A DNA stretch of 64,000 nt from Acidimicrobiales bacterium (GTDB taxonomy: Bacteria > Actinomycetota > Acidimicrobiia > Acidimicrobiales > Aldehydirespiratoraceae): positions 3,924,263 through 3,988,262 of the forward strand of contig JAWPML010000001.1 of assembly GCA_033344915.1 (NCBI GenBank). Direction: 5' to 3'. Below are positions 25,380 to 45,830 of the stretch, piece after piece. Each line of letters begins with the position of its first letter. The first letter of the stretch is position 1. The translations under genes were made by a program, and so were the position numbers. Below the pieces are notes generated by a model. That model was not told the DNA's origin. It worked only from the letters and a program-made list of their open reading frames with translations, and ran no database searches.

Positions 25380-29300
<3,921 letters not shown>

Positions 29301-29317
29301 TCCGGCCCCAACCCTGC

Positions 29318-29364
29318 AACTGGCGTGTGCATCACCCGAAAACCGGGTGATGCACACGCCAGTT
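29318..29364. terminator. Perfect 21-bp hairpin terminator between rpoC and the convergent SDR gene
   Basis: The arms 29318-29338 and 29344-29364 are exact reverse complements with a 5-base loop (AAAAC). T-rich bases follow on the plus side (GGTTTTGG). It sits between the convergent rpoC and SDR stops and could stop transcription from both sides. Confidence 0.85.
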
Positions 29365-29383
29365 CGTGGTTTTGGGGTGGGGC

Positions 29384-30226: not shown

Positions 30227-30227
30227 G

Positions 30228-31673
30228 TCAGTCCTCCCCGAGCCACGCCCGGCGGCGTTCGGCATCCGGATCGTCGTCGATCGTGATCTCGCGCCCGAGC
30301 CGGATCGTGGGTCGGGAGATCGTGTCGTGGGCCGGCCAGTCGCCGATCGGCGCGCACGCCGGTGTCCCGCGGTGGCAGAAGGCGGCCCATGCCTCCCGCA
30401 TGGCTGCGGACAGCCGGTCGGCCGCGTCGTCGCCGGCGACGAACGCCCGCCAACCCTGCGCGTCGAGGGTTCCGAAATGGAACGGCAGGTCGACGGCGTG
30501 GGCGGCACCGATGGTCGGCGCCTGCCAGTCGAACCGGTAGCGCCAGACGGAATGGCCGGCGGCCACATGGGCGTCGGCGAGCACGACGGCCGGGAGATGC
30601 AGCTCGGTGTCGGCGATGGCCTCGACGAGATCTCCGGCGGCGGCCAGGCCCGCTCGGACCTGCTCGTCCGCGGGGGGCGAGCCGGTGACCGCGGCGACCT
30701 TCGGTGCGAGCCAGGCGGCGGCGAACTCGTCCGGGAGGTCCGGCACCGCGTCGCGGAACAACTCCATCTCCTGACTCGTGGTCCCGATCACGACCGGCAC
30801 CGGCGCGAGCCGACCCTGGCGGGCGGCGTCGAGCGGTGAACGGGGGAGGATGTCGCCGTCGACCCACGGATGGAACGGCATCATGCCGACGGTGGCGAGG
30901 AGATCCGCGTCGGCGCGGGTCTGCACATCCAGGAGGTCATCGGCATCGAGCGCGCGCAACGCATCGACCGAGTCGGTACCTGCCGCGGCGAGCACCGCGT
31001 CGGCCACGACCCCCGCGGCGTCCGACGTGAGTGTGGCGCCGGGCGCGCCGCTGGCGATGATCGCGCCGCTTACCAGGTCTTCGATCCCCGGCACGGCGAG
31101 CAGGTGGGCGACGGCTCCCGCGCCGGCGGATTCGCCCATGACGACCACCCGGCTCGGGTCGCCTCCGAAGGCGGCGATCTCGTCGCGGATCCAGGTCAGC
31201 GCGGCGATCAGATCGCGGAGCCCGAGGTTGCTGGGCACGCCGTCGGCGGCGAGGAAGCCGCACATGCCGAGTCGGTAGTTGAGGGCCACCGTGACGAGAT
31301 CGCCCTCGGCTGCGAGCCGACTGCCGTCGTAGGTCGCCAGCGCGTTGCCGCCGATCTTGAACGACCCGCCGGGAATCCAGACGAGGACCGGCCGCGATCC
31401 GTGCAGACCCGGCGTGCGGATCTCGGCGCTGAGGCAGTCCTCGCCGATGTCGGCGACGGCCATCCCGGGTACCGGCGCGTCGTCCGGGACGACCTGTAGC
31501 GGCGCCGGGCCGGGCGCGTCGGCGGACCGGACGCCCGGCCAGGCCGGAACCGGCTCGGGGAGGCCGAAACGCTCCGCTCGGGCATACGCCACGCCGCGGA
31601 ACGCAAGGACGTCGCCGGGGAGGCCGCGGAGGCACCCACCGGACACGGTGGTCTGTTGTTCCCGGCGTTTCAC
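30228..31673 (-). CDS. Carboxylesterase/lipase, type B (alpha/beta hydrolase)
   Basis: A 481-residue type-B carboxylesterase with the oxyanion-hole segment PGGSF (101-105), nucleophile elbow GESAG (S182) and a histidine in the late AVDLPFHFG region. No signal peptide is seen, so it is likely intracellular. The GTG at 31673 is chosen because it overlaps the stop of the VOC gene (GTGA) and fits the usual N-terminus. The frame is open further upstream within the VOC gene. It cleaves carboxylic esters; the natural substrate is unknown. Confidence 0.85.
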   Translation of the reverse strand: MKRREQQTTVSGGCLRGLPGDVLAFRGVAYARAERFGLPEPVPAWPGVRSADAPGPAPLQVVPDDAPVPGMAVADIGEDCLSAEIRTPGLHGSRPVLVWIPGGSFKIGGNALATYDGSRLAAEGDLVTVALNYRLGMCGFLAADGVPSNLGLRDLIAALTWIRDEIAAFGGDPSRVVVMGESAGAGAVAHLLAVPGIEDLVSGAIIASGAPGATLTSDAAGVVADAVLAAAGTDSVDALRALDADDLLDVQTRADADLLATVGMMPFHPWVDGDILPRSPLDAARQGRLAPVPVVIGTTSQEMELFRDAVPDLPDEFAAAWLAPKVAAVTGSPPADEQVRAGLAAAGDLVEAIADTELHLPAVVLADAHVAAGHSVWRYRFDWQAPTIGAAHAVDLPFHFGTLDAQGWRAFVAGDDAADRLSAAMREAWAAFCHRGTPACAPIGDWPAHDTISRPTIRLGREITIDDDPDAERRRAWLGED

Positions 31674-32122
31674 GTGAACGTCCAGTGGTCCGGTTGGGGT
31701 TCGCCGCCGCGCTCGAAGCACTGGATGTCGAACCAGATCGGGAGCAGGAACCGCACGTAGAACGCGTGGGTCACATGGTCGCCGTTGACCAGGTCGTCGT
31801 ATTCCTTGATCTGCACGCGATCGTCCGCCGCTCGGCGTGCCTTGGCCTTCGCCAGCAGGGCATCGACCTCGGCGCGGGTGTCACACAAGAGCCCCAGATG
31901 GTCGTAGCCGGGGGAATCGATGTGAACGCGCTGTTCTGTCACGAGGATGAACTGGCTCGTGGCGTCGTCGGTGCGGAGCAGCAACCCGCTCTGGCCGAGG
32001 ATCGGGATGTCGCTCGCCGTCCAACCCAGCAGGTCGCCGTAGAACTCCCGTATCTCGTCGCGCGTTTCCGTGAGCCTTCCCGGTGGGAGCGTCAGCTCCA
32101 TGTGGTTGAACCGCAGTGGCAT
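31670..32122 (-). CDS. VOC (glyoxalase/dioxygenase) superfamily protein
   Basis: A 150-residue protein with the paired beta-alpha-beta pattern of the vicinal oxygen chelate superfamily: RFNHMELTL at the start, FYGDLLGW, a central DHLGLLCD and a late FYVRFLLPIWFDIQCFE. Candidate metal ligands are the histidines in NHMEL and YDHLG and a C-terminal acidic residue. It may bind a small aromatic or CoA-linked ligand. It is first in a coupled set with the esterase and SDR. Confidence 0.65.
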   Translation of the reverse strand: MPLRFNHMELTLPPGRLTETRDEIREFYGDLLGWTASDIPILGQSGLLLRTDDATSQFILVTEQRVHIDSPGYDHLGLLCDTRAEVDALLAKAKARRAADDRVQIKEYDDLVNGDHVTHAFYVRFLLPIWFDIQCFERGGEPQPDHWTFT

Positions 32123-32139
32123 GGGGTCGACCCTCTCGG

Positions 32140-33801
32140 TCAGGTGCCGGTCGTCGGCCTCCGGCCTCGGATGAGCAGGTAGCCGCCGCCGAGCGCGATG
32201 AGCGCCACCACGACGATGACGATCGCACCGCCCGCGCCGCCGTCACCGTCGTCGCTCGTGGCGTCCGCGGCCGGTTCGGCGGCCCCGTCATCGGGCGCCA
32301 GGGTGCCATCGTCGGTCGGCTCCGGATCGTCCGACGGCGGTTCCGTGGTCGTCGGCGCAACGGTCGTCGTGGTGGTCGTGGTCGGCGGCGGCGGGGTGAA
32401 GCCGTCGAGTCGGGCGACGAGCCAGCTGTCGTCGTCGGCCACCGGGGTTTCGTCCGGTGGGAACCCGAACGACGTCGGTCCGCTGGTTATCGCGAACACG
32501 ATCGCATCGCCGTCGGCGAGGAGTTCCGAGCCCCAGGACACGTCGAAGTCCTCGCTTCCGTAGCCGGTCGTCCACACGAGCGAGCCGTCCGGCTGGTAGA
32601 CGGCGACGCCGAGACGCGACTGGTCGCCGAGTTCCTGGGTCGGCTCGTCCGCGCCGAAGGTGACGCTGCCCGGACCCACGTCTCCAGAGACGATGATCTC
32701 GCCGCTCGGCCGGACCCCCAGCGAGCGGTACTCCTCCTCGCCGGCCTCCGCCGAGCCGATGACGTGGACCCACTCGAAGTCGCCGGCCGCGGAGTAGCGG
32801 GCCAGGAGGTGATCGTCGCCGAACCCGTCGTCGATCAGGATCTCGGCCGTCGCCTCCGCGTCCGTTCCCTCGCCCATGACGATCTCCCGGTTGGTGCTGA
32901 GCCAGAGGACCGAGGCACCGTCGTCGCTCGTCGCGAGATCGAGCACGTCGCCGGAGAACGACACGCCGGTGCCGACCCCCCAGTCGAGCTCCCGGGCACT
33001 GTTGTACGAACCGAGGATCGCGTCCTGCACGATCCGGGTGTCCTCCTGGACGACCTCGATCGTGGTCTCGGCTGCCCCCTCGCCGATGGTCACCGTGCTG
33101 GCCGCGACGCCGAGCACGCGCACGCCGCCGTCCGGGCCCGCGGCGACGGTGACGTCGCTGACGTCTGCCCACAGGTCGGTGTCGACCAGCGTCCCGTCCG
33201 GCGTCAACCAGGCGACGAACGCCGAACCGAGGGGGCTGCCCTCGTGCGTCAGGGACGTCTCGGTGTCCTCGCCTTCGCCGAGCACGATCGTGCCCGTGAA
33301 CCGGGCCGCGAGGGCGATCGTGCCATCCGTCAGCTCGACGGCGATCGGGGCGCGGAGACCTTCGATGCGACGCTCCCACCGGACCGTGCCGTCCGGAGCG
33401 ACGCGGGCGAGCGTGCGATCCTCGCTCGTCACCAACAGGTCGCCATCGTCGGTGATGGTGAGTCGTTCCGCCGCGGCGTCGAGCGCGATCACGGACCGAA
33501 GCTCTCCCTCCAGGCTGATGCGGAGCGCGTAGGTGCCGGTGGTGTAGGTCGCTTCGGCGACGTCGCCGCCGCCGAACGTGACGGACCCGTCCACGTTGAG
33601 GATGGCGACGATCTCGCCGGCGGCTTCGTCGACGGCGAAGCCGCGCGGGGTCGTCGTGCCCCCCGCGGTCCGAGGGATGGTGACCGCCCACTCGAGCTCG
33701 CCTGTCGCGTCGTCCTGGGCCGCGATCGGCGACACGGTCGCCAGCATCGTGGACACGAGGACGACCGTGAACACTGCCTGCCACCGTCGCCGCATCATCA
33801 C
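32140..33801 (-). CDS. Secreted beta-propeller-like protein with Thr/Pro linker and C-terminal membrane anchor
   Basis: A 553-residue protein with a signal peptide (basic MMMRRR, hydrophobic core, cleavage after a SPIAAQ-like site). A repetitive beta-rich body has recurring TFGGG/TVTIGEG-type strands and GTYALRIS/ARYSAAGDFEW segments, as in SBBP/beta-propeller proteins. A PPPPTTTTTTT linker, an acidic stretch and a C-terminal helix IVIVVVALIALGGGYLLI with a basic tail complete it. It is probably displayed on the outer face of the cell. Function unknown. ATG codons at 33798 and 33795 are also possible. Confidence 0.65.
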   Translation of the reverse strand: MMMRRRWQAVFTVVLVSTMLATVSPIAAQDDATGELEWAVTIPRTAGGTTTPRGFAVDEAAGEIVAILNVDGSVTFGGGDVAEATYTTGTYALRISLEGELRSVIALDAAAERLTITDDGDLLVTSEDRTLARVAPDGTVRWERRIEGLRAPIAVELTDGTIALAARFTGTIVLGEGEDTETSLTHEGSPLGSAFVAWLTPDGTLVDTDLWADVSDVTVAAGPDGGVRVLGVAASTVTIGEGAAETTIEVVQEDTRIVQDAILGSYNSARELDWGVGTGVSFSGDVLDLATSDDGASVLWLSTNREIVMGEGTDAEATAEILIDDGFGDDHLLARYSAAGDFEWVHVIGSAEAGEEEYRSLGVRPSGEIIVSGDVGPGSVTFGADEPTQELGDQSRLGVAVYQPDGSLVWTTGYGSEDFDVSWGSELLADGDAIVFAITSGPTSFGFPPDETPVADDDSWLVARLDGFTPPPPTTTTTTTVAPTTTEPPSDDPEPTDDGTLAPDDGAAEPAADATSDDGDGGAGGAIVIVVVALIALGGGYLLIRGRRPTTGT

Positions 33802-33829
33802 GGCAGGGTAGCCGCGCCGGCGCAGCAGG

Positions 33830-35431
33830 CTAGATCCGCTCGACCGTGCCGCCGTCGGGGAGCACCCAGCTCGTGGCGACCTCCACGGCCGTACCCGGCA
33901 CGGTCGCGTCCTCGACCTCGCGGAAGTCGGCTCGCCACTCCGTCGGCGTGATCTCGTGGCGGGTCCAACCGCGGCGGGTGGCCTGGGCCCACTCGAGGTG
34001 GGGATTCTGCTCCAGAACCGCCGGGATGATCGGCTCGAGCAGCGAGCCGTCGGACGAGACGGACGTGCCGACGAACTCGGTGCCGATCACCTCCGCGTTC
34101 TCGTCGTCGAAGTCCGTCGCCAAGCTGCCGACCCAACTGCTGTGGACATCGCCGGTGAGGACCACCGGGTTGCGCACGTCGGGGGACCGCAGGTCGTCGA
34201 AGAGGCGGTCGCGGGCGGCGGGATAGCCGTCCCACTGGTCGAGGTTCCACGCCGCGTCGCCCGGCAGGAGTCGCCATTGCTGCATGACGACCTGCTGTTG
34301 CAGGACGTTGTAGACGGCATCGGAGGCGGCGAGTCGGTCGCTCAGCCATGCCTCCTGTTCGGCGCCGAGCACGGTGAAGTCCGGCCCGTCCGATCCCTCG
34401 CAGCGTGGACCGACGTCGTTCGCGGCGCATGCCTGGTCCGTCCGGTACTGGCGTGTGTCGAGCACGGACAGGGACACGAGGCGACCGAACTCGACCCCGC
34501 GGTGGATCGGCAGCGATGCGCCGACCGGGGCGGCGAGGCGGACGGGCATGTTCTCCCACCAGGCCTGGTAGGCGGCGCCCCGACGGGCCAGGAAGCTCTC
34601 GCGATCCGGCGTATCGCTGCCGTTCTCCGCGACCTGACCCTGGTAGTTGTTCTCCACCTCGTGGTCGTCCCAGGTGACGACCCACGGCGCGATCGCATGC
34701 GCGGCCTGCAGCGAGGGGTCCGCCTTGTAGCCCGCGTAGATCGCCCGGTAGCCGGCGAGTTCGGTGGGCTCCGGGATGTCGAGCGTCCGGATACCGCTGC
34801 CGTTTCGCTCGTAGATGTAGTCGCCGCAGTGGACGATCGCGTCCACGTCGTGGGTCGCGAGATCGTCGAAGGCCGTCCAGTATCCCTGGGTGATCCGCTG
34901 GCAACTGATGTGCCCCAGGACGAGTCGGTCCGCGAGATCCCCGGCGGCCGGTGTCGTGCGGGTGCGGGCGGTCTCCGTCTCCCAGTCGCCGACGAAGAAG
35001 CGGTACCAGTAGGTGCGGGCCGGCTCGAGTCCGGCGAGCTCGATGTGGACACTGTGTCCGAACGCCGGGTCGGCGACCGCGTTCCCGGACGCCACGATGT
35101 CGCTCATGTTCTCGTCGGCGCCGACCTGCCAGCCGATCGTCACCGCTTCGGGGGTCATCCCGCCGTCGGGCGCGAAGGGGTCGGTTGCCAACCGGGTCCA
35201 GAGCACGACCGAGTCGCTCGCCGGATCACCGGAGGCGACACCGAGGCTGAAGGGATCGGCGGCGAAGCTCGGCCCCGGCGGCAGCGTCGACGCGGTCGTG
35301 GTCGGCGCCGCGGAGGTGGTGGACGCGGTGGTGACCGGCGGCGCGGACGTGGCGTCCCCCGAGCAGGCGGCGATTATGCCGCTGGCGGTGACGATCAGGA
35401 ACGATCGCCGGGTGAGTGGGGATCCGGCCAT
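33830..35431 (-). CDS. phoD: Alkaline phosphatase D (PhoD) family, Tat-exported lipoprotein
   Basis: A 533-residue PhoD phosphatase/phosphodiesterase. A twin-arginine motif TRRSFL (R8-R9) is followed by a lipobox ending at C23 (IIAACS) and a Thr/Ser-rich linker. The catalytic domain shows SVVLWTRL, HCGDYIYE, WDDHEVENNY and LTGDVHSS, the metal-binding motifs of the PhoD family (iron and calcium). It releases phosphate from phosphoesters outside the membrane. Only 62 bp separate it from the MBOAT gene downstream; a GGACA/TGTCC hairpin at 35461-35484 lies between them. Confidence 0.9.
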   Translation of the reverse strand: MAGSPLTRRSFLIVTASGIIAACSGDATSAPPVTTASTTSAAPTTTASTLPPGPSFAADPFSLGVASGDPASDSVVLWTRLATDPFAPDGGMTPEAVTIGWQVGADENMSDIVASGNAVADPAFGHSVHIELAGLEPARTYWYRFFVGDWETETARTRTTPAAGDLADRLVLGHISCQRITQGYWTAFDDLATHDVDAIVHCGDYIYERNGSGIRTLDIPEPTELAGYRAIYAGYKADPSLQAAHAIAPWVVTWDDHEVENNYQGQVAENGSDTPDRESFLARRGAAYQAWWENMPVRLAAPVGASLPIHRGVEFGRLVSLSVLDTRQYRTDQACAANDVGPRCEGSDGPDFTVLGAEQEAWLSDRLAASDAVYNVLQQQVVMQQWRLLPGDAAWNLDQWDGYPAARDRLFDDLRSPDVRNPVVLTGDVHSSWVGSLATDFDDENAEVIGTEFVGTSVSSDGSLLEPIIPAVLEQNPHLEWAQATRRGWTRHEITPTEWRADFREVEDATVPGTAVEVATSWVLPDGGTVERI

Positions 35432-35493
35432 CGCCGGACACTAACCGGGGGAGGGAGAACGGACAGGTGCCTGACTCCGTGTCCATTCTCGGA

Positions 35494-37050
35494 TCAGAGC
35501 AGGGCCTGCACCGGGGCGGTGACGAACTGCCAGAAGACCGTCCAGGCGAGCGAGTAGTCGCGGATCGACACGAACGCGAAGCCGCCGGCGACATAGAGGT
35601 TCGTGAGCACGGTGCCGCCGATGGTGCGGAAGCGACTCTCCTTGACGAGGTTCCACGGCCACCAGGCGAGCACCGCCATCCCGATGCCGTGGTACAGCCC
35701 CCAGGTCACCCAGGTCAGCGCGAGGTCGTGCCAGAGCGCGATCGTGAGCAGGGTGACGACGAGGGCGGCCGACTGGCTCCGCGTCGTCGCGATGACCGGG
35801 AAGAAGACGTTGCGGAACGCCCAGCCCGACAAGGAGATGTGCCACCGCCTCCAGAACTCGGCGAGGTCCGGCGCGAAGATCGGCCAGCGGAAGTTCTCGC
35901 CGATGGTGTGGCCGAACAGCCGGGCGAGCCCGATGGCGATGTCCGAATAGGACGAGAAGTCGAGGTAGGCGAGGAGGTAGGCGAGGATGCAGAAGCGCAC
36001 GACGTCCCACGGGTCGCCGGTCGGATCGGTGACGATTCGGCTCCAGAGTCCGCTCTCGAACAGCAGTCCGGCGAGGATCCCGTCGACGATGACGAGCTTC
36101 TTCGCCACCCCGACGGTGATCCGCATCGCGCCGTCACCGATGTCGTCGCGGGTGATGCGCTCGGCCCGGTTCTTGAAGAACGTGTCGACGAGCTCGATCG
36201 GTCCGGCGACGAGGGTCGGCGGGAACAGGACGTAGACGAGATAGCGCCGCAGCGTCAGGTCCTCGAGTTGGCCGCGGTGCCACCGGAGCTGGAGATCGAG
36301 CAGCCGGATCAGGAAATAGCTGGTGCCGAGCGGGAGCACAAGCGCCAGCGCCCCGTAATCCTCGAACGAGACGAGGAAGATGGCCTTGAAGTTCTTGAGG
36401 ACCAGCAGGATCAGCGCGGTGACGGCGAGCCAGGTGAGGATGAATCTCCCGCTGCGGCGGTCACTGGCCCGGTACCAGCGACCGATCGCGTAGAAGGCCA
36501 GCAGGATCGCGAGCAGGATCACCGTGAAGCCGAACTGGAGCGCCGCCAGGACGGTCACGGAGAAACCGATCAGCAGCCACTGACTGAGCGCTTCGCGCCG
36601 ATGGGTGAGCACGATCACCGGGACGAACGCGAGGGCGAGCAGGAAGAGGCGGCTGAGCCAGCGGCCGTCGAAGGGTGCCTGGCGGGTCTGGCGGACGTTG
36701 TCGATGCCGTCGACGTCCACGATTGCGCCGTCGAGCGTCGGGGCGATGACGAGGCGCAGTGAGTCGCCCACGAGGGTGGCGTGGCCGCGGCACGTGAACG
36801 ACGCATCGCACTCGACCTCGTTGAACCCGCGGGTCCGGATGTCGTCGACCGTGTCGACGCCGTCGACCGAGAAGCGGACGACATAGTCCAGCGTCGCACC
36901 GTGCCCCTCGAACTCGGCTTCCCATCGGCCGTCCTCGGTGATGCCCTGGGCTTCCGGTCCGGCGATGTCGTCCGTCACGATCGACCAGATGCCGACGAGG
37001 ACCGCGGCGAGGGCGAGCAGCGTGATCAGGGGGCGGAGCTTGGTGATCAC
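35494..37050 (-). CDS. MBOAT-family membrane O-acyltransferase (DltB/AlgI-like)
   Basis: A 518-residue multi-pass protein. After one N-terminal helix comes an extra-membrane beta-rich insert of about 100 residues containing paired cysteines, then the MBOAT helices. The invariant histidines are H441 (LWHDL, the catalytic-type position) and H404 (WRRWHISLSGW). It should move an acyl group from a carrier on the inside to an acceptor outside the membrane. The GTG start overlaps the stop of the SGNH-like gene. It is the last gene in the six-gene acylation operon. The N-terminal insert is unusual for DltB. Confidence 0.85.
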   Translation of the reverse strand: MITKLRPLITLLALAAVLVGIWSIVTDDIAGPEAQGITEDGRWEAEFEGHGATLDYVVRFSVDGVDTVDDIRTRGFNEVECDASFTCRGHATLVGDSLRLVIAPTLDGAIVDVDGIDNVRQTRQAPFDGRWLSRLFLLALAFVPVIVLTHRREALSQWLLIGFSVTVLAALQFGFTVILLAILLAFYAIGRWYRASDRRSGRFILTWLAVTALILLVLKNFKAIFLVSFEDYGALALVLPLGTSYFLIRLLDLQLRWHRGQLEDLTLRRYLVYVLFPPTLVAGPIELVDTFFKNRAERITRDDIGDGAMRITVGVAKKLVIVDGILAGLLFESGLWSRIVTDPTGDPWDVVRFCILAYLLAYLDFSSYSDIAIGLARLFGHTIGENFRWPIFAPDLAEFWRRWHISLSGWAFRNVFFPVIATTRSQSAALVVTLLTIALWHDLALTWVTWGLYHGIGMAVLAWWPWNLVKESRFRTIGGTVLTNLYVAGGFAFVSIRDYSLAWTVFWQFVTAPVQALL

Positions 37051-38237
37051 TCGGCGTCGATTCCCAGCTCGGTGTCGAGGAGGGCCTCGAACACGGCATC
37101 GGTGAGGCGGGGGCGGGCGGGCGCGAGGAGGTGTTCGAGGTCGAAGAACTCGTCGTCCTCGAACGGCAGCGACCGGAGGTCGAGCCGGGTGGCATCGCCG
37201 GCGGCGACGAGCCGGTCGACGTCGGCGTCGTACTGGTCCCAGATCGGTCCGTAGGCGGCGACGGACTGGCTCGCCCGCGGGACCTCGAGGAAGACGACCT
37301 CGGCGCCGGTCGCCCGGATGGCCTCGGTGAGCGCGGCCGCGATCGTCAGATCGAGCTCGTGATGATCGAGGTACCCCTGCACACGGGTCTCGGCGACGAT
37401 CTCGGCCAGCTCGGCCTTCTCGATGTCGGTCAGCGGCTGGTTGCCGTAGCCGTAGCGAACCGGGCGGCGGATGTCGCGAAACGAGGTGTCGGTCAGCGCG
37501 CCCCAGTCGACGTAGGTCAGCCGCCCGGCGAAGAGGTCCTGCCAGGCCTGGGTGGTCTCGCCGCGGAGCCGGCCCTCGACCCACTGGCGCAGGAACAGAC
37601 GATGCTCGAACACCGCGGTCTCGTCCCACGGCGAGAACACCGCCGAGTCACCGAACGCCTCGAGGTGCCCGGTGATCCCCGAGGGATCGGGGCGGGCGGC
37701 GTCGATCGGGTCGGCGGATACGAGCTCATCCAGCTCGTCGGCCGGGAGGAGGGAGAAGCGCGAGGCCGAGAACTCCTGTTCCAACGCGTCGTCGCCGAAC
37801 CCGAACCGTCGCGGGTTCACGCTGATCACGACCGTGTCGCCCTCGGCCAACGGCAGGTTCAGCGCGATCCTGGCGGTCTCGGCCATCGACTGGTCGAAGC
37901 TGTACAGGGTGTGCACCTCGGGCGCCGCCGGGCCGAGCACCGCGTCGATCTCCTGCTGGATGACCGCGTCGGGCAACAGGCCTTCCCGGATGGTCGAGCC
38001 GCCGATGAGGATGATGCGCCCGGCGTCCGGACGCTCGCTCGACTGGATCGCGACGACTTCGGAGACGAGGCGGCCGTGGTCGTCACGTTCGTGGGCGAGG
38101 AACGACTCGGCACTCCACTCGTCGAGACCGTCCGGATCGAATGCGACCCGCACGGTCACCTCCACCGCGACGAGCAGGATCGCGACGGTGAGGGCGGCGG
38201 CGGCGAAGGCGCGACGGTTGGCGAGCAGCCCGGTCAT
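37047..38237 (-). CDS. Membrane-anchored SGNH-like protein (DltD/AlgX-like)
   Basis: A 396-residue protein with one N-terminal membrane helix (11-32) and an outside domain. GGSTIREG (S81) takes the place of the GDS block, and a D366-x-x-H369 pair (DLEHL) near the C-terminus completes a possible Ser-Asp-His triad. This fits the SGNH partner that receives the acyl group from an MBOAT and passes it to a cell-envelope polymer. It overlaps the MBOAT gene by 4 bases. The substrate polymer is unknown. Confidence 0.7.
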   Translation of the reverse strand: MTGLLANRRAFAAAALTVAILLVAVEVTVRVAFDPDGLDEWSAESFLAHERDDHGRLVSEVVAIQSSERPDAGRIILIGGSTIREGLLPDAVIQQEIDAVLGPAAPEVHTLYSFDQSMAETARIALNLPLAEGDTVVISVNPRRFGFGDDALEQEFSASRFSLLPADELDELVSADPIDAARPDPSGITGHLEAFGDSAVFSPWDETAVFEHRLFLRQWVEGRLRGETTQAWQDLFAGRLTYVDWGALTDTSFRDIRRPVRYGYGNQPLTDIEKAELAEIVAETRVQGYLDHHELDLTIAAALTEAIRATGAEVVFLEVPRASQSVAAYGPIWDQYDADVDRLVAAGDATRLDLRSLPFEDDEFFDLEHLLAPARPRLTDAVFEALLDTELGIDAE

Positions 38238-38241
38238 CGGT

Positions 38242-38394
38242 TCAGAACCCGGCGTAGCGGAAGGCCGACAGCTCGGAGGACGTGAGCCAGATCGAGACCG
38301 CGATCGACAGGAAGACGATCACCCAGAACGCGTAAGCGATCGCGAAGTCGCGACGCGGATGGGCGGGCGGTTCGTCCGTCGGCTCGTCGCTCAC
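38242..38394 (-). CDS. 50-residue single-pass membrane protein, DltX-like
   Basis: A small open frame with a GTG start overlapping the stop of the ligase gene (GTGA) and a stop 4 bp before the SGNH-like start. The N-terminus is acidic and proline-rich, with two arginines (14-15) just before one hydrophobic helix (about 18-38). The protein ends in ELSAFRYAGF. The positive-inside rule places the C-terminus outside. Position between the ligase and SGNH genes, size, topology and the final Tyr/Phe motif resemble DltX of Gram-positive dlt operons, whose C-terminal tyrosine is, from memory, reported to carry the acyl group. Homology is not proven. Confidence 0.65.
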   Translation of the reverse strand: MSDEPTDEPPAHPRRDFAIAYAFWVIVFLSIAVSIWLTSSELSAFRYAGF

Positions 38395-39869
38395 GACGTC
38401 TCCAAGGACTCGATCAACGCGTCGAGTGCTCGGCGGTCGACCTTGCCGGATCCGGTGCGGGGGATCGAGGGGATCGGCACGAACGTCTTCGGGATGTGGT
38501 TGGTGGCCAGGTCCTCGCGGAGCCGGCGCACCGTCTCGGTCCGGTCGAAGTCGCCCCGTACGACGACGTAGGCGACCGGCACGTGGCCCTCCATCCGGTC
38601 CGCCGCCGCCCGCACGAAGGCGTCCTCCACCGAGTCGAGATCCTTGAGCGCATCGGTGATGACCTGGGCGGAGACCTTCAGGCCGGACCGTTTGAAGACG
38701 GCGTCCGACCGGCCGGCCATGAAGAGGTACCCGTCCTCGTCGCGGTACGCCTTGTCGCCGGTGTGGAAGCCGCGGGGGCCCAGCACCGCGTCGTTGGCCG
38801 CCGGGTTCTCGTGGTAGCCGTCGAAGCGGAACGGCCCGTCGACGTGCACTTCGCCGATTTCACCGGGCGCCGCGATCGCGCCGGACTCGTCGTAGACGTC
38901 GAGCTCGATACCCGAGATCGGCAGGCCGACGCTGCCCTTCTTGCGGACGATGTCCCCCGGCGGAAGCGTGCAGATGCGCCCGCCCATCTCCGCCATGCCG
39001 TAGACGACATGGAGCTCGAGATCGGGGAACGCCGCCAGGAGCTGGTCGATCGTGGAGACCGGCAGATGGTCGCCCGAGGACATCAGCCAGCGCAGATCGG
39101 GGAGACGCTCCGTGCCCGCCAGCGCGACGAACTGGGCATGGAAGGGCGAGCCGCCGAAGGCCGTGATGCGGTTGTCGGCCAGCTCCGTCATCAGGTCCTT
39201 CGGCATGAGGGTGGTCTCGACACCGTGGAACGCCGCGCCGCACATGAGCGTGACGACGAAGTGGCTGATCGAGCTGATGAACCGGAACGGGGTCGCGATC
39301 ATCAGCCGATCGGTCCGCCGCAGTCGGAGCCGATCCCGCGTCGCCAGGGCGTTCATCACGAGCTGTTCGTGGGTGAGCGGCACCCCCTTCGGGAGACCGG
39401 TGGTGCCGGAGGTGAAGATGAGGCCGGCGAGATCCGGCTGGGTGTCGGCCCCGGCCCAGGGCAGATCCCGCAGCGACGACACCGCCGCGCCCACCGGGTC
39501 GGTGTCGCCGACGGGTTCGAGCCCGGCGAAGGCCGGCGGCGGATCGATGCCGGCCGCGCACAGACGGGTGGCACCGGTGATCGCGAGCACGTTGGCGCCA
39601 TGGTCGTCCGGCACGTCCGGTTCGAGACACACCGGCTTGGCGCCGATCACCCACAGGGCGAGCAGGTCCACCCAGAAGCGCTCGCCCCGACCGCAGAGCA
39701 CGACGACGAACTCGTCGGCGCCCACGCCGGCATCGGTCAGCTCGTCGATGCGGCCCCGCACACGGGCCAGCAGGTCGCCGCGGGTGAGCTCGGACGATCC
39801 GACGAGGCATGGCGCGTGGGCGTCGGCGATGAGCGCACCCATCACGTAGCGGGCGATGTTCTTCTTCAC
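38391..39869 (-). CDS. AMP-dependent acyl-activating ligase (DltA-like)
   Basis: A 492-residue adenylate-forming enzyme. Motifs: FTSGTTGLPKG (152-162), YGMAEMGGR, FHTGDKAYRDEDGYLFMAGR, and the catalytic C-terminal lysine K476 in RTGSGKVDRR. It should activate a carboxylic acid as an adenylate and load it on the acyl carrier protein encoded just upstream. In the substrate region PFRFISSISHFV I see no aspartate where D-alanine ligase (DltA) and NRPS domains bind the amino group, so the substrate is probably not an amino acid. That reading depends on alignment. Confidence 0.85.
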   Translation of the reverse strand: MKKNIARYVMGALIADAHAPCLVGSSELTRGDLLARVRGRIDELTDAGVGADEFVVVLCGRGERFWVDLLALWVIGAKPVCLEPDVPDDHGANVLAITGATRLCAAGIDPPPAFAGLEPVGDTDPVGAAVSSLRDLPWAGADTQPDLAGLIFTSGTTGLPKGVPLTHEQLVMNALATRDRLRLRRTDRLMIATPFRFISSISHFVVTLMCGAAFHGVETTLMPKDLMTELADNRITAFGGSPFHAQFVALAGTERLPDLRWLMSSGDHLPVSTIDQLLAAFPDLELHVVYGMAEMGGRICTLPPGDIVRKKGSVGLPISGIELDVYDESGAIAAPGEIGEVHVDGPFRFDGYHENPAANDAVLGPRGFHTGDKAYRDEDGYLFMAGRSDAVFKRSGLKVSAQVITDALKDLDSVEDAFVRAAADRMEGHVPVAYVVVRGDFDRTETVRRLREDLATNHIPKTFVPIPSIPRTGSGKVDRRALDALIESLETS

Positions 39870-39879
39870 CGCGGGTGAC

Positions 39880-40107
39880 TCAGCTGTACTTCTCGACGGT
39901 CGCCACGATCAGCTCGATCGAGTCGAAGTCGTCGAGGGCGACGTCGAGCGGCGACAGGGTGATGCCGAGGTCGTCGTTCAGCGAGAACAACAGCGACACG
40001 GCACTGAGGCTGTCGAGCAGGCCGGACGAGAACAGGAGGGTGTCGTCGGCGATGTCGGGCTCGAGGCCCAGGTTCTCGATCACCAGGGATCGGATCTTGT
40101 CCTTCAC
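39880..40107 (-). CDS. Acyl carrier protein (DltC-like)
   Basis: A 75-residue acidic carrier protein. The DSL motif (D32-S33-L34 in SGLLDSLSAV) places the 4'-phosphopantetheine attachment at S33. Size and motif are typical of free-standing carriers such as DltC. It sits 10 bp before the ligase and 9 bp after the aldehyde dehydrogenase, so it is the likely carrier in this operon and not the fatty-acid synthase ACP. Confidence 0.85.
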   Translation of the reverse strand: MKDKIRSLVIENLGLEPDIADDTLLFSSGLLDSLSAVSLLFSLNDDLGITLSPLDVALDDFDSIELIVATVEKYS

Positions 40108-40116
40108 GCGGGCTCC

Positions 40117-41589
40117 TCAGTCGCCGTAGTTCAAGATGTTGGTCTTCGCGTACGTGTACGACTCGAGCATGGCTTCCAGTGAGCCCTCTTTGCCCAACCC
40201 GCTCGTGCGGATGCCACCGTACGCGATGCCCGGCACCATGATCGCGTTCTGGTTGATCTGCACGATGCCCGCTTCCAGACGGTCCGCGAGGCGCATGCAG
40301 GTGGTGATGTCCCGTCCCCAGACGCTGGCGGAGAGGCCGAACTCGGTGTCGTTCGCGAGGGCGAGCGCGTCGTCCACGTCGTCGTAGGAGAACACGCACA
40401 CGACCGGTCCGAAGATCTCCTCCACCGCGGCGCGATGGTCCGGCGGCGGATCGAAGATCGCATGGGGGCGCACGTAGTAGCCGCCGTCCCAGTCGACGCC
40501 GTCGGCAACGGTGCCGTAGGTGGCGACATCGAGGCCGTCGGCGATCGCGCCGTCGACATAGTCCTGCACCCGGTCCCGTTGGCGGGCGGAGATGAGCGGG
40601 CCGCACTGGGTGTCGGGGTCTAGGGCGGGACCGATCAGGATGTCGTCGAGTGCCTTGCCGAGCCGTTGGCGGAAGTCGTCGAGACGGGCCGTCGGGATGA
40701 ACACCCGACTCGCCGCGGTGCAGCTCTGGCCGCCGCGGGTGAAGCGCATCGACTGGACGACACCGTGCACCGCCTTGTCGAGGTCGCAGTCGGCGAGCAC
40801 GATCATCGGGCTCTTGCCGCCGAGCTCCAGGGTGACCGGGCGGATGAGCCGGGCGCTCGCCTCGTAGACGACGCGGCCGGTCTCGACGCTCCCGGTGAAG
40901 CTGACCTTGTCGACGTCGGCATCGGCCACCAGCGCATTGCCGGTGATCTCGCCCGTGCCCGTCAGGAAGTGCAGGATGCCGTCGGGTAGCACGGCGGTGA
41001 GTTCCTGAAGCACGCGGATCAGGGTGAACGAGGTCTGTTCGGGAACCTTGATCACCGATGCGTTGCCGGCGACGAGCGGGGCGGCGACCTTGTAGCCCAT
41101 CATCATGAGCGGCACGTTCCACGGAACGATGCCGGCCACGACGCCGTGCGGGTGGCGGGTCGTGAAGCCGAGGACGTCCGGACCGAGCTGGGTGGTGTGC
41201 CCCTTGACCTCGTGGCTCACGCCGGCGAAGTAGCGGAAGATCTCGACGACGAGTCCGACCTCGCCCCGACACTCCGTGGCGATCGCCTTGCCGGACTCCA
41301 GCGCGAGCAGATCCGCCAGCTCGTCACCGATGGCTTCGAGCCGGTCGGCGCACTCGTTCATGAGCCGGTTGCGTTCCTGCGCTGTGGTACGCGCCCACGA
41401 GGGTTGCGCCCGGCGGGCCGCCGCCGTGGCCTCGGCGACCCGTGCCGCATCACAGATCGGCACGGTCGCGATCACGGCGCCGGACGAGGGGTCGAACGCG
41501 TCGAACGTCGGCGTGTCGGAGGGGAGTGACGCGTGGTCGAGATACCAGGACCGCAGGTCGGCGATCGTCGCGGGGGTCGGGCCGTTCAT
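40117..41589 (-). CDS. Aldehyde dehydrogenase
   Basis: A 490-residue NAD(P)-dependent aldehyde dehydrogenase with catalytic C290 in GGQSCTA and the LELGGKSP motif carrying the general-base glutamate. It is first in the minus-strand operon leading to the ACP, ligase, membrane peptide, SGNH and MBOAT genes. It could make the carboxylic acid that the ligase then activates; this link is inferred only from gene order. A broad housekeeping role is possible too. Confidence 0.9.
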   Translation of the reverse strand: MNGPTPATIADLRSWYLDHASLPSDTPTFDAFDPSSGAVIATVPICDAARVAEATAAARRAQPSWARTTAQERNRLMNECADRLEAIGDELADLLALESGKAIATECRGEVGLVVEIFRYFAGVSHEVKGHTTQLGPDVLGFTTRHPHGVVAGIVPWNVPLMMMGYKVAAPLVAGNASVIKVPEQTSFTLIRVLQELTAVLPDGILHFLTGTGEITGNALVADADVDKVSFTGSVETGRVVYEASARLIRPVTLELGGKSPMIVLADCDLDKAVHGVVQSMRFTRGGQSCTAASRVFIPTARLDDFRQRLGKALDDILIGPALDPDTQCGPLISARQRDRVQDYVDGAIADGLDVATYGTVADGVDWDGGYYVRPHAIFDPPPDHRAAVEEIFGPVVCVFSYDDVDDALALANDTEFGLSASVWGRDITTCMRLADRLEAGIVQINQNAIMVPGIAYGGIRTSGLGKEGSLEAMLESYTYAKTNILNYGD

Positions 41590-41688
41590 CGCGCAACCCT
41601 ATTGCACCGCGAACGGTCTCCTCGCCTCCCCGTCGGTGACCCGCCGGCGAACGGAGAACCGGCGGTGCGGCCGGTAGGATCGCCGCTC

Positions 41689-42213
41689 ATGCGCCACTGG
41701 ATCACCGGCCTCGTTCTCCTCCTCGCCCTCGGCCTCCTGGCGGCCGGGTGTGGTGACGACGGCGGCGACGCCGACCCGGTCGCCGACCCCGACCCGGCCG
41801 ACGATTCCGCCGCTGACGAGGACGGGACCGGCGATGACGGCGCGGGCGACGCGGCCGACGATGGCAGCGACGCGCCGCCCGCCGTCGACTTCGAGGTCTT
41901 CGAGTCCGACGAGGGCGCGGGGTGCGCCGTCTACGTCTCGGTCCCCGAGGATGCGATCGGCGACGATCACCGGTTGCTGATCTGGCAGGGCGTGGTCGCA
42001 CAGGGCTTCACGACCTGCGGGTTCTCCGAGGTGGTCGAGGTCGGACTGTTGACCGTCAACGGGCTCGATTCGTACAACCAGCCGGACTTCTCACAGACCA
42101 TCGAGCACTCCTACTTCCAGGTCAGCGGTTGGGATGCGCTCGTCGCCGACTGCTACACGACGGACCTGGGGGATGCTTGCGCGGCACAGCTCCAGGCCGC
42201 GCTGACCGAGTAG
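41689..42213 (+). CDS. Lipoprotein with acidic linker, unknown function
   Basis: A 174-residue lipoprotein: hydrophobic signal, lipobox LLAAGC (C21), then an Asp/Ala-rich linker (about 22-65) and a small domain with four cysteines that may form two disulphides. I do not recognise the domain. It is divergent from the aldehyde dehydrogenase (99-bp gap) and 14 bp before the next lipoprotein, so the pair is probably co-transcribed. Confidence 0.6.
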   Translation: MRHWITGLVLLLALGLLAAGCGDDGGDADPVADPDPADDSAADEDGTGDDGAGDAADDGSDAPPAVDFEVFESDEGAGCAVYVSVPEDAIGDDHRLLIWQGVVAQGFTTCGFSEVVEVGLLTVNGLDSYNQPDFSQTIEHSYFQVSGWDALVADCYTTDLGDACAAQLQAALTE

Positions 42214-42227
42214 GCGACGCCACGGCC

Positions 42228-44162
42228 ATGGCGGGTCCGAGGCGGTGGGCGATCGCCGGTGTGGCGCTGGTCGCCCTTCTCGCCGCGTGCAGCGACGACG
42301 GCGGTGAGACCGCGACGCCGTCGAGCACGACGACCACGACGACGACCACCAGTACGACGACCACGACGACGGTTCCGTCGGGCGGTCGGGGCGTGGCGAC
42401 GTGGCCGCTCGTGGACGCGGTCCCGGCGTTTCGCAAGGCCGGCGTGCTCGTCGTGGCCGGCGTGGACCATCGACCGATCCTCGGTGCCTCGCTCGAGCAG
42501 GTCGCGGTCGAGCTCTCGCTGACCGCCGATGCGGCGGTCTTCGCGCTCGCGCCGGAGCGCGGCGAGGTCGCCTTCGATCAGATCCAGCTCGGCGCCGTCG
42601 ACGGCCCGGCGGCCGCGTGGCCGTTCGTGATCACGGCAAGCGGGGACCTGACCGTCTTCGTACCGGCCGAGGACGAGCGCGACTGCGCCGACGCGGTGGC
42701 CGAACCGGATGCCCTGCTCGCCGAGCACGGTGTCGTTCCCGTGGACGACGCCTTCGTGGTGACCGGCGCCCGCTGCGGACTCCTGCGAACGGACGATTCC
42801 GGAGCGTTCGGTCAACTGCCGCAGCCGGCGGACGGCGTCAACAGTTTCGGCGTGCTGCTGCGGGCGGTCGGTGCGCGACTCCCGGACTCGACCGTTCGCA
42901 TCGACTGGCTCGCGTTGGCGGCCTCCACCGAGACCGCGCCGGCCGCCGATCTCCGAATTCGCGTCGTCGGCCGCGAGCATGCCCTCGCCGCCCGCAGTGC
43001 CGATCCGGACGACGACGCCGCGCTCGACGCGCTCCACGTCCTGCGCGACGACGGCAGTACCACCGTCGTCGACATCGACCCCGCCGGCGGGTTCACGGTG
43101 CCGCGAGCGAACCTCGGCGTTCGAGCGAAGCTCTGGGTCGACGACTACGGGCTGGAGCACTTCGTGCAGCAGGGACCGTGGATCGACGTCGAGCGGATCA
43201 CCACCGATCTGACGATCGACATGACACCGGAGTTCCCCGTCGCCGACGGCCCACCGCCCGACAGCTATCAGACCAGACGACCGCACGACCTCCAGATCTG
43301 GAACGGTTCGACGGCGCTGGAACGCCAGCAGTTCCAGGGGCTGAACTGGAACAACAACCTCGGCCAGGCCGACCGCGACCGGGACCGGGACAATGCCGGC
43401 GAGTGCAGCCGGGCCGCCTGGTTCGGCGGGTCCTACGTGCAGGCCCTCCAGACCCGGGTGGACCAGAAGCCGGGCCTGATCGCCGAAGCCCTCCTCGAGC
43501 TCGGCTCGGACCGGTGCCACGAGGTCTTCTCCGTCGCCCGCTCGCTGTACTCGGTCGAGACCCACGCGGCGAACGCCCGCCAGATGGTCGAGGAGTTCGG
43601 TGTCACGCACCTGATCTTCGCCGTCTCCGGCAACGAGCTCTGCCGGATGGACGACGCGTCGTACACCGACATCCACGGGGTGGCGGCGGACACGCCTGTG
43701 CACTGGCGCCTCATCGACGGTGAGCTCGTCGAGCCGTTCACGAGGTCCGCGGCAACCGCCGTCGAGCCGGATCCGGACTTCGACCGGCGCGACGCGTGTT
43801 CGTTCCGCGACGCGGGCGACCCGGGTGCGGCCGAGGTGATCGACAAACTCCGGCAGCTCGGTGACCTCTACGAGGACCTCGGACCGGAGGTCGAGGTCAC
43901 GTTCTTCGTGATGAAGGACGTGCTCGCCGGGGCCGACGTGACGGCGGGCAACGTGTACGACATGTGCCTCACGACCGGACACCGCTGCGTGCTGCTCGAC
44001 GAGCCGGTCGCCCGCGAGAAGCCCGCCGACCTGGTCGAGGAGGACTACATCCCGTTCCTCCTGCGCTACGTGGGTGACGGCCATCCCAATGCCCGCGCGA
44101 ACCAGCACATCGGCCGAGGGCTCGCCGCGCTCATCACCGCGGCGGAGCTCGACGCCGACTGA
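42228..44162 (+). CDS. Lipoprotein with C-terminal SGNH-hydrolase-like domain
   Basis: A 644-residue protein with signal peptide and lipobox LLAAC (C21), a threonine-rich linker (TTTTTTTTSTTTTTT), a beta-rich middle and a C-terminal domain. The latter has AWFGGSYVQAL (a GDS-like block with Gly for Asp) and GDGHPNARANQHIG, close to the D-x-x-H block of SGNH hydrolases. It is probably a cell-surface esterase or acyl-acceptor protein. Next to the MBOAT operon on the opposite strand, it could act on the same polymer, but that is only suggested by location. Confidence 0.6.
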   Translation: MAGPRRWAIAGVALVALLAACSDDGGETATPSSTTTTTTTTSTTTTTTVPSGGRGVATWPLVDAVPAFRKAGVLVVAGVDHRPILGASLEQVAVELSLTADAAVFALAPERGEVAFDQIQLGAVDGPAAAWPFVITASGDLTVFVPAEDERDCADAVAEPDALLAEHGVVPVDDAFVVTGARCGLLRTDDSGAFGQLPQPADGVNSFGVLLRAVGARLPDSTVRIDWLALAASTETAPAADLRIRVVGREHALAARSADPDDDAALDALHVLRDDGSTTVVDIDPAGGFTVPRANLGVRAKLWVDDYGLEHFVQQGPWIDVERITTDLTIDMTPEFPVADGPPPDSYQTRRPHDLQIWNGSTALERQQFQGLNWNNNLGQADRDRDRDNAGECSRAAWFGGSYVQALQTRVDQKPGLIAEALLELGSDRCHEVFSVARSLYSVETHAANARQMVEEFGVTHLIFAVSGNELCRMDDASYTDIHGVAADTPVHWRLIDGELVEPFTRSAATAVEPDPDFDRRDACSFRDAGDPGAAEVIDKLRQLGDLYEDLGPEVEVTFFVMKDVLAGADVTAGNVYDMCLTTGHRCVLLDEPVAREKPADLVEEDYIPFLLRYVGDGHPNARANQHIGRGLAALITAAELDAD

Positions 44163-44240
44163 TCCGGTCGCACGCCGCCCCCGCGCCGCTCAGGCCGGGC
44201 CACGCGGTGCCGATGAAGAAGGTGACCGACGAGGAACCCC

Positions 44241-45686
44241 GTGTCACCGACTCCCGACCAAGCCGCGCCCATGGCCGAGGTGGGCCCGAACGCGGGCGAG
44301 TGGAAGGCCCGGCCGGTCCTGGCCTGGCTCGTGCGGGCCGCCCTGATCGTCGTACCGCTGGTCGTGAGTTGGCTCACCGTCCGGGTCGCGATGCGATACG
44401 TGAGCCGCCCCGACGGCCTCGGTCCCTCGATCGCCTGGTTCGCCGGCGCGCTCGTCCTCTCCTCGATCGTGTTCCAGGTCGTGCGCCGCCTGCTCCGCCG
44501 CTTCAGTTCGCTCAGCGTGCTGTTCAGCCTGTCGCTCACCTTCCCTGACGCGGCGCCGTCGCGCATGCGCGCGTTCTTCCGCTCGGGAGCCGACGCCCGT
44601 CCCGAGGATCTCGGCGTCGTCGTCCAGTCCGAGTTCGACGCGGCGATGATGACGAAACGGCTCGCCGCGCTCGTGGCCAAGGTGAGCCGACGGGAGGCGA
44701 GGTCGGGGCGCCACGGTGACCGGGTCCGGGGCTACGCCGAGCTGATCGCCCGGGAGCTCGGGCTCGAGGAACAGGAGATCGAGCGTCTCCGGTGGGCGAC
44801 CCTGCTCCACGATGTCGGGATGCTCGACGTCCCCGAGCACGTTCTCGACACGAAGGGCGGATTGAGCGCCGAGGAGCGCGCGATCGTCGAGCGCCATCCG
44901 GTCCATGCGATCGGTCATCTCGCGCCGTTCGCCGACTGGCTCGGCCCGTGGTCCGGCGCCGCCACCGATCACCACGAGCGGTGGGACGGCACCGGGTATC
45001 CGTCGGGTCTGGCCGGCGAGAACATCTCGTTGGCCGGCCGCATCGTCGCCGTCGCCGATGCCTACGACGCGATGACGGCGTTGCGCTCGTACCAGAAGCC
45101 CATTTCGCCGGCCGCGGCTCGACACGAGCTCGTCGAGCACTCGGGCACCCAGTTCGATCCGACGGTGGTCCGGGCGTTCCTGAACGTCGGCATCCGCAAG
45201 AACCGGGCCGGTTTCGGCGCCCTCGGCGCCCTCGTCGAGATCCCCGGTCACCTGGTCACCGCGGCCACGGGGGTCGGCGCCACGGCGACGGCGACCGTGG
45301 CGAGCGCGGCCGTGGTCGCCACGTCCGCCGCGGTCATCCCGGCCATCTCGACCGAGGCGCCGCCACCGACACTCATCGAGCGCGTCGTCGAGATCGAGGA
45401 GACGACCACCACGACGTCCACGACCCTGGCCGAGACGACGACTGTGGCGCCCAGCACCACCCAGCGGCCCACGACCACGACCACGACGACGACCACCGAG
45501 CCGCCCACCACGACGGTGACGACCACGACCGTCCCCGCGACGACGGCACCGCCGCCCACGCAGCCGCCGACGACAACCACCACGACGACGACGGCGCCGC
45601 CGCTGCCCCCACCGACGACCACCGTGCCGGCGTACCCGACCCTTCCGCCGGTCACGACCACGGTCCCGCCCTACCCGACGGTGTAG
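44241..45686 (+). CDS. HD-GYP phosphohydrolase with membrane helices and Thr/Pro-rich C-terminal tail
   Basis: A 481-residue protein. Two membrane helices (about 29-50 and 63-83) precede an HD-GYP domain with H190-D191 (LLHDVG), HH at 244-245 and DGTGYP (249-254). HD-GYP proteins hydrolyse cyclic di-GMP or related dinucleotides. A further hydrophobic Ala-rich segment (about 340-370) is followed by a roughly 100-residue tail of Thr and Pro runs. The tail is probably outside the membrane, linking the enzyme to the wall. GAGGAA lies before the GTG start. It ends 144 bp before rpsL. Confidence 0.8.
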   Translation: MSPTPDQAAPMAEVGPNAGEWKARPVLAWLVRAALIVVPLVVSWLTVRVAMRYVSRPDGLGPSIAWFAGALVLSSIVFQVVRRLLRRFSSLSVLFSLSLTFPDAAPSRMRAFFRSGADARPEDLGVVVQSEFDAAMMTKRLAALVAKVSRREARSGRHGDRVRGYAELIARELGLEEQEIERLRWATLLHDVGMLDVPEHVLDTKGGLSAEERAIVERHPVHAIGHLAPFADWLGPWSGAATDHHERWDGTGYPSGLAGENISLAGRIVAVADAYDAMTALRSYQKPISPAAARHELVEHSGTQFDPTVVRAFLNVGIRKNRAGFGALGALVEIPGHLVTAATGVGATATATVASAAVVATSAAVIPAISTEAPPPTLIERVVEIEETTTTTSTTLAETTTVAPSTTQRPTTTTTTTTTEPPTTTVTTTTVPATTAPPPTQPPTTTTTTTTAPPLPPPTTTVPAYPTLPPVTTTVPPYPTV

Positions 45687-45723
45687 CGGGTCCGCGTACG
45701 CGCGAAAGCGCGCCCCGCGCGGG

Positions 45724-45752
45724 TTGATGCTCCCGTGGGTCGCTCGTATGCT
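45724..45752 (+). promoter_or_regulatory. Candidate sigma-70 promoter of the str operon (rpsL)
   Basis: TTGATG and TATGCT are separated by exactly 17 bases, and a start near 45759 gives a leader of about 70 bases to rpsL. An upstream GCGCG-AAA-CGCGC-type hairpin near 45700-45715 may end the HD-GYP transcript. Confidence 0.6.
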
Positions 45753-45830
45753 TTCTCGTCGGCCTGAGCGCGCTTTCACGGCGCAGCCGGCCGCAACCGA
45801 TCTCCATTCCTCTTCCACGAAGGTTTTTCT

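Follow-up and report, generated by a model that had tools for sequence, protein, structure and literature searches.

The closest described counterpart of the locus analyzed here is the Dlt system, which D-alanylates teichoic acids of Gram-positive walls in Bacillota and, in this analysis, was also found in other Actinomycetota. In this system, DltB passes D-alanine to the invariant Tyr of the C-terminal FXYXXF motif of DltX and, from there, to DltD (available part of PMC12148441). The tail of DltX reads FLYFGF, and the active residues of DltB are His289 and His336 (available part of PMC11035591). Other MBOAT/SGNH pathways are described, in the accessible text of PMC12148441, as lacking a similar carrier or a DltX-like microprotein and as bearing the motif at the C terminus of the MBOAT. 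We compared these systems with a six-gene operon located on the minus strand, at positions 35494-41589 of a 64,000-nucleotide stretch (the window, always meaning the whole stretch) of contig JAWPML010000001.1 from an Acidimicrobiales bacterium. In gene order, the operon encodes an aldehyde dehydrogenase (ALDH), a carrier protein, an adenylating ligase, a 50-amino-acid membrane peptide, an SGNH-like protein, and an MBOAT. It probably specifies a carrier-dependent acyl-export machine that works like Dlt on an acid other than D-alanine, with the ALDH making or completing the acid. The features of the operon are as follows.

40117-41589, minus strand: ALDH, 490 amino acids; Pfam Aldedh, 470 bits; C290, E255, and N158.
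39880-40107, minus strand: carrier protein, 75 amino acids, phosphopantetheine site S33 (GLLDSLS); Pfam PP-binding, 35.8 bits.
38391-39869, minus strand: adenylating ligase, 492 amino acids; Pfam AMP-binding, 170.5 bits, plus the C-terminal domain.
38242-38394, minus strand: single-span membrane peptide, 50 amino acids, DltX-like putative acyl shuttle; FRYAGF end, transmembrane span at about residues 17-35.
38245-38262, minus strand: codons of the C-terminal FRYAGF, including that for Tyr47, the presumed acyl carrier; role of FXYXXF from the available part of PMC12148441.
37047-38237, minus strand: SGNH-like protein, 396 amino acids, with an N-terminal membrane anchor; S81 and D366/H369 motifs, proposed DltD role.
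35494-37050, minus strand: MBOAT acyltransferase, 518 amino acids, H404 and H441; Pfam MBOAT, 56.7 bits, over the cut-off.

The junctions between the six genes measure 9, 10, -4, 4, and -4 bp in gene order; the MBOAT gene starts with GTG at 37050 and overlaps the SGNH-like gene by 4 bp. Pfam families were matched by four of the six proteins (Aldedh, PP-binding, AMP-binding with its C-terminal domain, and MBOAT). An earlier note on this DNA had described six packed or overlapping minus-strand genes of these types, and positions, junctions, and profile matches agree with that description. The same note had held that five of the parts correspond in kind to DltC, A, X, D, and B in a different gene order, a claim borne out by the motifs, the His residues, and the order A-B-C-D-X in control operons.

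Judging by its two-His MBOAT and its acyl-Tyr shuttle motif, the operon is a variant of the MBOAT-SGNH acyl-export kind. In the proposed mechanism, the ALDH would oxidize an aldehyde to a carboxylic acid, which the ligase would adenylate and load onto the phosphopantetheine arm of the carrier. The MBOAT would then move the acyl group across the membrane onto Tyr47 in the FRYAGF tail of the peptide, which would pass it to Ser81 of the SGNH-like protein; the latter would transfer it as an ester to a hydroxyl on an acceptor outside the cytoplasm, for which a cell-wall glycopolymer is the likeliest candidate. We infer all of the chemical steps, the nature of the acid, and the acceptor from sequence.

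The strongest evidence in the analysis is the FXYXXF terminus of the small peptide, which the earlier note had missed. The FRYAGF end is an exact match to the motif and is the same in 3/3 orthologues, and hydropathy predicts one transmembrane span. Among the 891 stop-to-stop frames of at least 30 residues in the window, the peptide is the single one that ends in F.Y..F; in 59 other opened regions, which were chosen for their MBOAT genes, 48 of 14,517 frames have such an end. The peptide matches no Pfam or NCBIfam family, and a PDB sequence search with it returned nothing useful. The missing family match means little because DltX of a genuine dlt operon used as a control (L132) also matches no NCBIfam model.

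The active-site residues of the MBOAT are similarly recognizable: H289 and H336 of DltB align with H404 and H441 (structures 8jem and 6bug). DltB is the sole NCBIfam match of this protein, at 124 of a cut-off of 375, and its C terminus, TAPVQALL, lacks a fused FXYXXF motif. An extra N-terminal span and a presumably extracytoplasmic domain of ~100 residues (window 36650-37050, minus strand) were also observed; both are absent from DltB and from the MBOATs of the related loci L012 and L047, which are described below.

The second system that invites comparison is PatA/PatB-type O-acetylation; AlgI is the alginate counterpart of its MBOAT. Like the window operon, this type combines an MBOAT and SGNH pair with an FXYXXF acyl-Tyr shuttle. 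However, its motif resides on the MBOAT and its donor is acyl-CoA (available part of PMC12148441), whereas in the window the motif is on a separate peptide and the ligase and carrier would provide the supply. A search of 298 genomes of the order at 1e-12 yielded an MBOAT match in 129, own genome included, and 40 regions from 40 of these genomes, high ranking but not strictly the top 40, were opened. In 37 of these regions, [FY]XYXXF is fused to the C terminus of the MBOAT (as YIYFQF in four), two MBOATs are cut by contig ends, and one, L047, lacks the motif. In two of the 40 regions (L069 and L070), ligase-like stretches lie a few kilobases from a fused MBOAT.

A maximum-likelihood tree of 60 MBOATs, unrooted and with the two that are cut by contig ends (L078 and L079) left out, placed all 44 proteins with a fused [FY]XYXXF on one side of a branch with support of 98/92. 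The 11 DltB proteins form a clade supported at 100/100, and at 100/99 in a second tree that holds the window MBOAT; the window protein is outside this clade in both. It groups at 97/85 with the MBOATs of a same-genus relative (G005), L012, and L047, on long branches and in a grouping flagged by the tree tool as possibly false. When either L012 and L047 or the window and G005 proteins were dropped (together with L129 and every other fused row), the remaining pair still lay apart from the DltB clade and from the fused forms. Within the limits of this unrooted sample, the MBOAT of the operon appears to belong to neither DltB nor the fused group.

With DltC as the best NCBIfam model of the carrier and DltB as the sole one of the MBOAT, as well as all five Dlt-type parts and the FXYXXF peptide in place, the locus could be taken for a normal Dlt (D-alanylation) operon in which the genes have been reordered and a dehydrogenase has strayed in. 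This explanation is very unlikely. The window proteins reach no curated Dlt cut-off (DltB, 124 of 375; DltC, 37.8 of 68 bits; DltA, 118 of 560; DltD, no match) and thus score far under the models, whereas the proteins of L132, a true actinobacterial operon, pass those for DltB (478), DltC (84), and DltD (234); the DltA of L132 passes the subfamily model (479 of 476) and not the equivalog (490 of 560). Also against this explanation are the ligase pocket and the position of the MBOAT, which is separate from the DltB clade in the two trees that include it.

The ligase scores higher against acyl-CoA-ligase and nonribosomal peptide synthetase (NRPS) adenylation models than against DltA. In Bacillus cereus DltA, an Asp helps hold the amino group of D-alanine, and a Cys shapes or lines the methyl pocket (available part of PMC8972799). 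In an alignment with seven DltA proteins (that of B. subtilis and six of the 11 found in actinobacteria), all of which keep both residues, the Asp is replaced by I198 and the Cys by S265 in the window ligase, and Ile and Ser occupy these positions in 3/3 orthologues (residue numbers were counted from motif starts). The other pocket positions, whose correspondence to the NRPS code we assume, read S, S, M, V, G, and R (R298, by alignment), and the catalytic Lys is kept (K476). No acidic residue is found among these other positions, and therefore none could hold an amine, which argues against alpha-amino acids as the substrate. Hydroxy, keto, or dicarboxylic acids seem likeliest. Lacking the D-alanine pocket, the ligase probably activates an acyl group other than D-alanine, as the earlier note had suggested; the loss of the pocket residues in all three orthologues and their presence in the seven DltA proteins sustain that suggestion.

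Genuine dlt operons for comparison came from a profile search of 396 genomes of the phylum at 1e-35, which matched 70. From 16 of these genomes, 18 regions were opened; they were partly chosen for short frames and are therefore enriched for split forms. Eleven regions (L130-L140) contain DltA, six are fused types, and one is L129. The 11 are genuine dlt operons of other Actinomycetota, with DltA proteins 38-47% identical to B. subtilis DltA and the order A-B-C-D-X in L132 and L133, and a separate F.Y..F tail was found near 5 of the 11 actinobacterial DltB genes. The window operon shares with DltABCDX an ATP-dependent ligase, a free carrier, a two-His MBOAT, a separate single-span FXYXXF peptide, and a membrane-anchored SGNH-like protein, all in one operon. 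Conversely, it differs in the missing D-alanine pocket, the leading ALDH, the order ALDH-C-A-X-D-B, the additional N-terminal domain of an MBOAT that lies outside the DltB clade, and a shuttle with FRY in place of the FVY or FIY of the five actinobacterial DltX tails. By most tests, the operon is strictly not a Dlt system: its proteins score below the curated cut-offs, its ligase lacks the pocket, and its MBOAT is not in the DltB clade; the separate FXYXXF peptide is present.

The gene set recurs in relatives. A ligase search matched 3 of 51 genomes of the family, own included, in 2 of 10 genera, and a search with the SGNH-like protein matched 3 of 61 genomes, again with its own. Three genomes carry the operon: the own one, G005 (same genus, second species; BQJV01000491.1, Acidimicrobiales bacterium DHS20C19), and G030 (another genus; JAACCU010000175.1, Actinomycetota bacterium H12BWF_bin.29). 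The earlier note had named lack of the gene set in relatives as a result that would count against its proposal; the set was found in the same order in G005 and, for the five genes on the contig, in G030. In G005, blast recovered all six genes and a downstream PhoD gene at 91-99% identity on two contigs, one with the last 87 amino acids of the ALDH, the carrier (99% identity), the ligase, the peptide, and the first 312 amino acids of the SGNH-like protein, and the other with the last 26 amino acids of the SGNH-like protein, the MBOAT, and PhoD. In G030, the ALDH (in part), carrier, ligase, peptide, and SGNH-like protein are 79, 80, 74, 60, and 60% identical over the parts present (the carrier, ~79-80%); this contig stops after the first 128 amino acids of the SGNH-like gene, and the MBOAT would lie beyond its end. 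The ratio of nonsynonymous to synonymous substitution rates (dN/dS) is at most 0.41 in 10/10 gene pairs with G005 or G030, the highest being that of the peptide against G030 (dN, 0.45; dS, 1.10); against G005, the translated codons of the peptide are identical at 50/50 positions. Three other searches understate the spread or say little about it: the MBOAT at E ≤1e-40 found its own genome alone among the 298 of the order, the ligase at 1e-70 found its own genome alone among the matches listed for 396 phylum genomes (three candidates scored per genome), and a contig scan with two strict peptide patterns returned the two known relatives alone.

More distant cassettes share part of this design. 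The own genome encodes two further MBOATs, one fused (L011, FIYFQF) and one in a split cassette (L012). The latter (L012:9588-15267, genome G000, near 2.268 Mb) was seen to comprise two ligases, one of them carrier-fused, an SGNH-type protein, an MBOAT with no fused motif, and a 47-amino-acid peptide ending in FRYLEV. In L047, from another family, a carrier-fused ligase is accompanied by a protein bearing SGNH-like motifs, an MBOAT lacking [FY]XYXXF, and a 47-amino-acid peptide that ends in FRYANL. A search for the carrier-fused ligase at 1e-90 matched 3 of the 298 order genomes (four candidates scored per genome). The third of them contains L151; here the SGNH-type protein has a weak, below-cut-off Pfam Lipase_GDSL_2 match (3.4e-05), and the contig ends before any peptide or MBOAT is visible. 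Like the window operon, the three cassettes combine a ligase, a carrier, and an SGNH-type protein, and L012 and L047 also have a separate FRY peptide and an MBOAT that itself bears no motif; unlike it, they have the carrier fused to the ligase, a different ligase pocket, no ALDH seen, and, in 2/3, a shorter SGNH-type protein. The residue before the Tyr is Arg in 5/5 ligase-linked peptides of Acidimicrobiales (window, G005, G030, L012, and L047), which represent at most three distinct lineages, and I, L, or V in 44/44 fused MBOATs. We consider it improbable, although conceivable, that a separate Acidimicrobiales lineage of carrier-loaded split-shuttle machines exists, with FRY peptides and neither Dlt nor PatA-type, of which the window version would use its own ALDH to turn a semialdehyde into the negatively charged, dicarboxylic acyl group that it exports; this group would be recognized by Arg298 in the ligase pocket, an Arg beside the ALDH catalytic cysteine (RFTRGGQSC), and the Arg of FRY, and would add negative rather than positive charge to the wall.

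Two side observations concern these cassettes. In L047 (8483-9397), a sulfotransferase gene separates the MBOAT from the ligase-carrier fusion, which may point to sulfation of the acyl group or of the acceptor. L129 (5587-8329, genome G357) encodes an MBOAT together with a long protein that bears SGNH-like motifs and a separate 36-amino-acid peptide ending in KFLYIDF, with no ligase match in 15.5 kb; it is apparently a split shuttle without the carrier route.

The ALDH goes with the operon. It belongs to the hydrolytic aldehyde dehydrogenase superfamily, as indicated by its Aldedh match and by C290 and E255, which, like N158, we take to be catalytic. At 1e-100, the single PDB chain that it matched was phenylacetaldehyde dehydrogenase (4o5h, 341 bits). 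ALDHs as a class are both abundant and promiscuous, and no ALDH match at 1e-3 was obtained in the stretches examined around L012, L047, and L151; both points favor an export machine as proposed here but with a metabolically unrelated ALDH (serving, for example, aldehyde detoxification) and an acid drawn from central metabolism. Such an arrangement, which differs from our proposal in the first step alone, is possible but rather doubtful. The ALDH is the first gene of the operon, 9 bp from the carrier, and its 79% identity to the G030 protein over 378 residues is much like that of the carrier and ligase. Furthermore, at E ≤1e-120 it was matched in 2 of 51 family genomes, both carriers of the operon (the third carrier, G005, has only the last 87 residues before a contig end), and it was not found in the 48 family genomes without the operon.

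Immediately beyond the MBOAT lies one further gene on the same strand.

33830-35431, minus strand: PhoD-like phosphatase, 62 bp downstream of the MBOAT; Pfam PhoD, 330 bits; a neighbor whose membership in the operon is unproven.

PhoD adjoins the MBOAT in G005 too, and the PhoD orthologue of another genome (G006) is in a different context, within 19.9 kb that share no other DNA with the window. A link of PhoD to the operon as a teichoic-acid hydrolase is conceivable. The operon is placed between rpoC and fusA-tuf, with rpsL and rpsG recognized by eye just before fusA. Usually, rpoC and rpsL-rpsG-fusA-tuf are near each other; here, ~16 kb (window 29300-45800), the operon included, separates them. 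The DNA that G005 shares with the window extends from the rpoC end into the ALDH gene. On the other side, a divergent lipoprotein-like protein of ~640 amino acids with SGNH-looking blocks (FGGSY and DGHPN) and no family match adjoins the operon (window 42228-44162, plus strand); as a candidate homologue of the SGNH-like protein it found no support in a profile comparison (P, 0.76).

Several results weigh against the reading of the operon as a Dlt-like exporter of another acid. The operon is rare (3/51), and the evidence for its conservation comes from three genomes, two of them of one genus. At 21-26% identity between the ligase and DltA, the pocket reading is coarse, and the acid is not predicted from it. 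The leave-out trees do not prove that the window and L012/L047 MBOATs are sisters. Because no ALDH was matched in the stretches examined around the related cassettes, the ALDH would fall outside the wider cassette design. Genes for an acceptor polymer or glycopolymer were not found among the scanned neighbors of the operon, PhoD, of doubtful relevance, aside. Finally, SGNH-like is the weakest label in the operon, drawn from motif register and weak profile matches. The protein matches no Pfam family and has one chance-level NCBIfam match alone; its AlphaFold2 models are poor (predicted local distance difference test scores of 40 from a single sequence and 44 from three), and the hhalign probabilities of the supporting profile matches are just 16 and 34%. 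Compared with L012 alone, it gave a P of 0.19.

Those supporting matches are weak but place both catalytic blocks (S81; D366 and H369) in register with the DltD profile (P, 0.0016), and likewise with an L012/L047/L151 profile (P, 0.0004); six control pairs of unrelated proteins gave P values of 0.11-0.54. Intermediate values were obtained for window-L129 (0.0037), window-L047 (0.0081), L129-DltD (0.016), and L047-DltD (0.044), and L012-DltD (0.23), L129-L012 (0.31), and the L012/L047/L151 profile against DltD (0.10) were unsupportive. A Foldseek search with the three-sequence model gave 708 matches at E ≤10 and none at 0.001, and a PDB sequence search with the protein gave nothing useful.

The absence of glycopolymer genes from the scanned neighborhood and the preference of the ligase for acyl-CoA-ligase and NRPS models over DltA would also suit a different product: the acyl-carrier intermediate built by the first three proteins would be destined for a secreted compound (a lipid, glycolipid, or small molecule), and the MBOAT and SGNH protein would acylate this compound in place of a wall polymer. 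Carrier-ligase pairs are, moreover, frequent in natural-product clusters. However, the operon contains no other biosynthetic genes, and a shuttle motif together with an SGNH protein is the pattern of envelope-polymer acylation (available part of PMC12148441), so that a secreted product appears unlikely. For the envelope polymer favored here, a CDP-glycerol glycerophosphotransferase homologue (151 bits) encoded in the genome makes an acceptor of the teichoic-acid type possible, but nothing links this homologue to the operon.

Among the literature matches listed, with most subscription journals outside the search, no carrier-dependent MBOAT-SGNH operon for an acid other than D-alanine was found. 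The window operon and the L012 and L047 cassettes, in which a carrier and a microprotein accompany a non-DltA ligase, look like counter-examples to the statement on non-Dlt pathways in the available part of PMC12148441. Two small soluble proteins would suffice for a direct test of which acid is used. If the proposal is true, carrier and microprotein would form a general export route in which an exchangeable ligase selects the acid, and some Acidimicrobiales may have walls with unrecognized ester groups.

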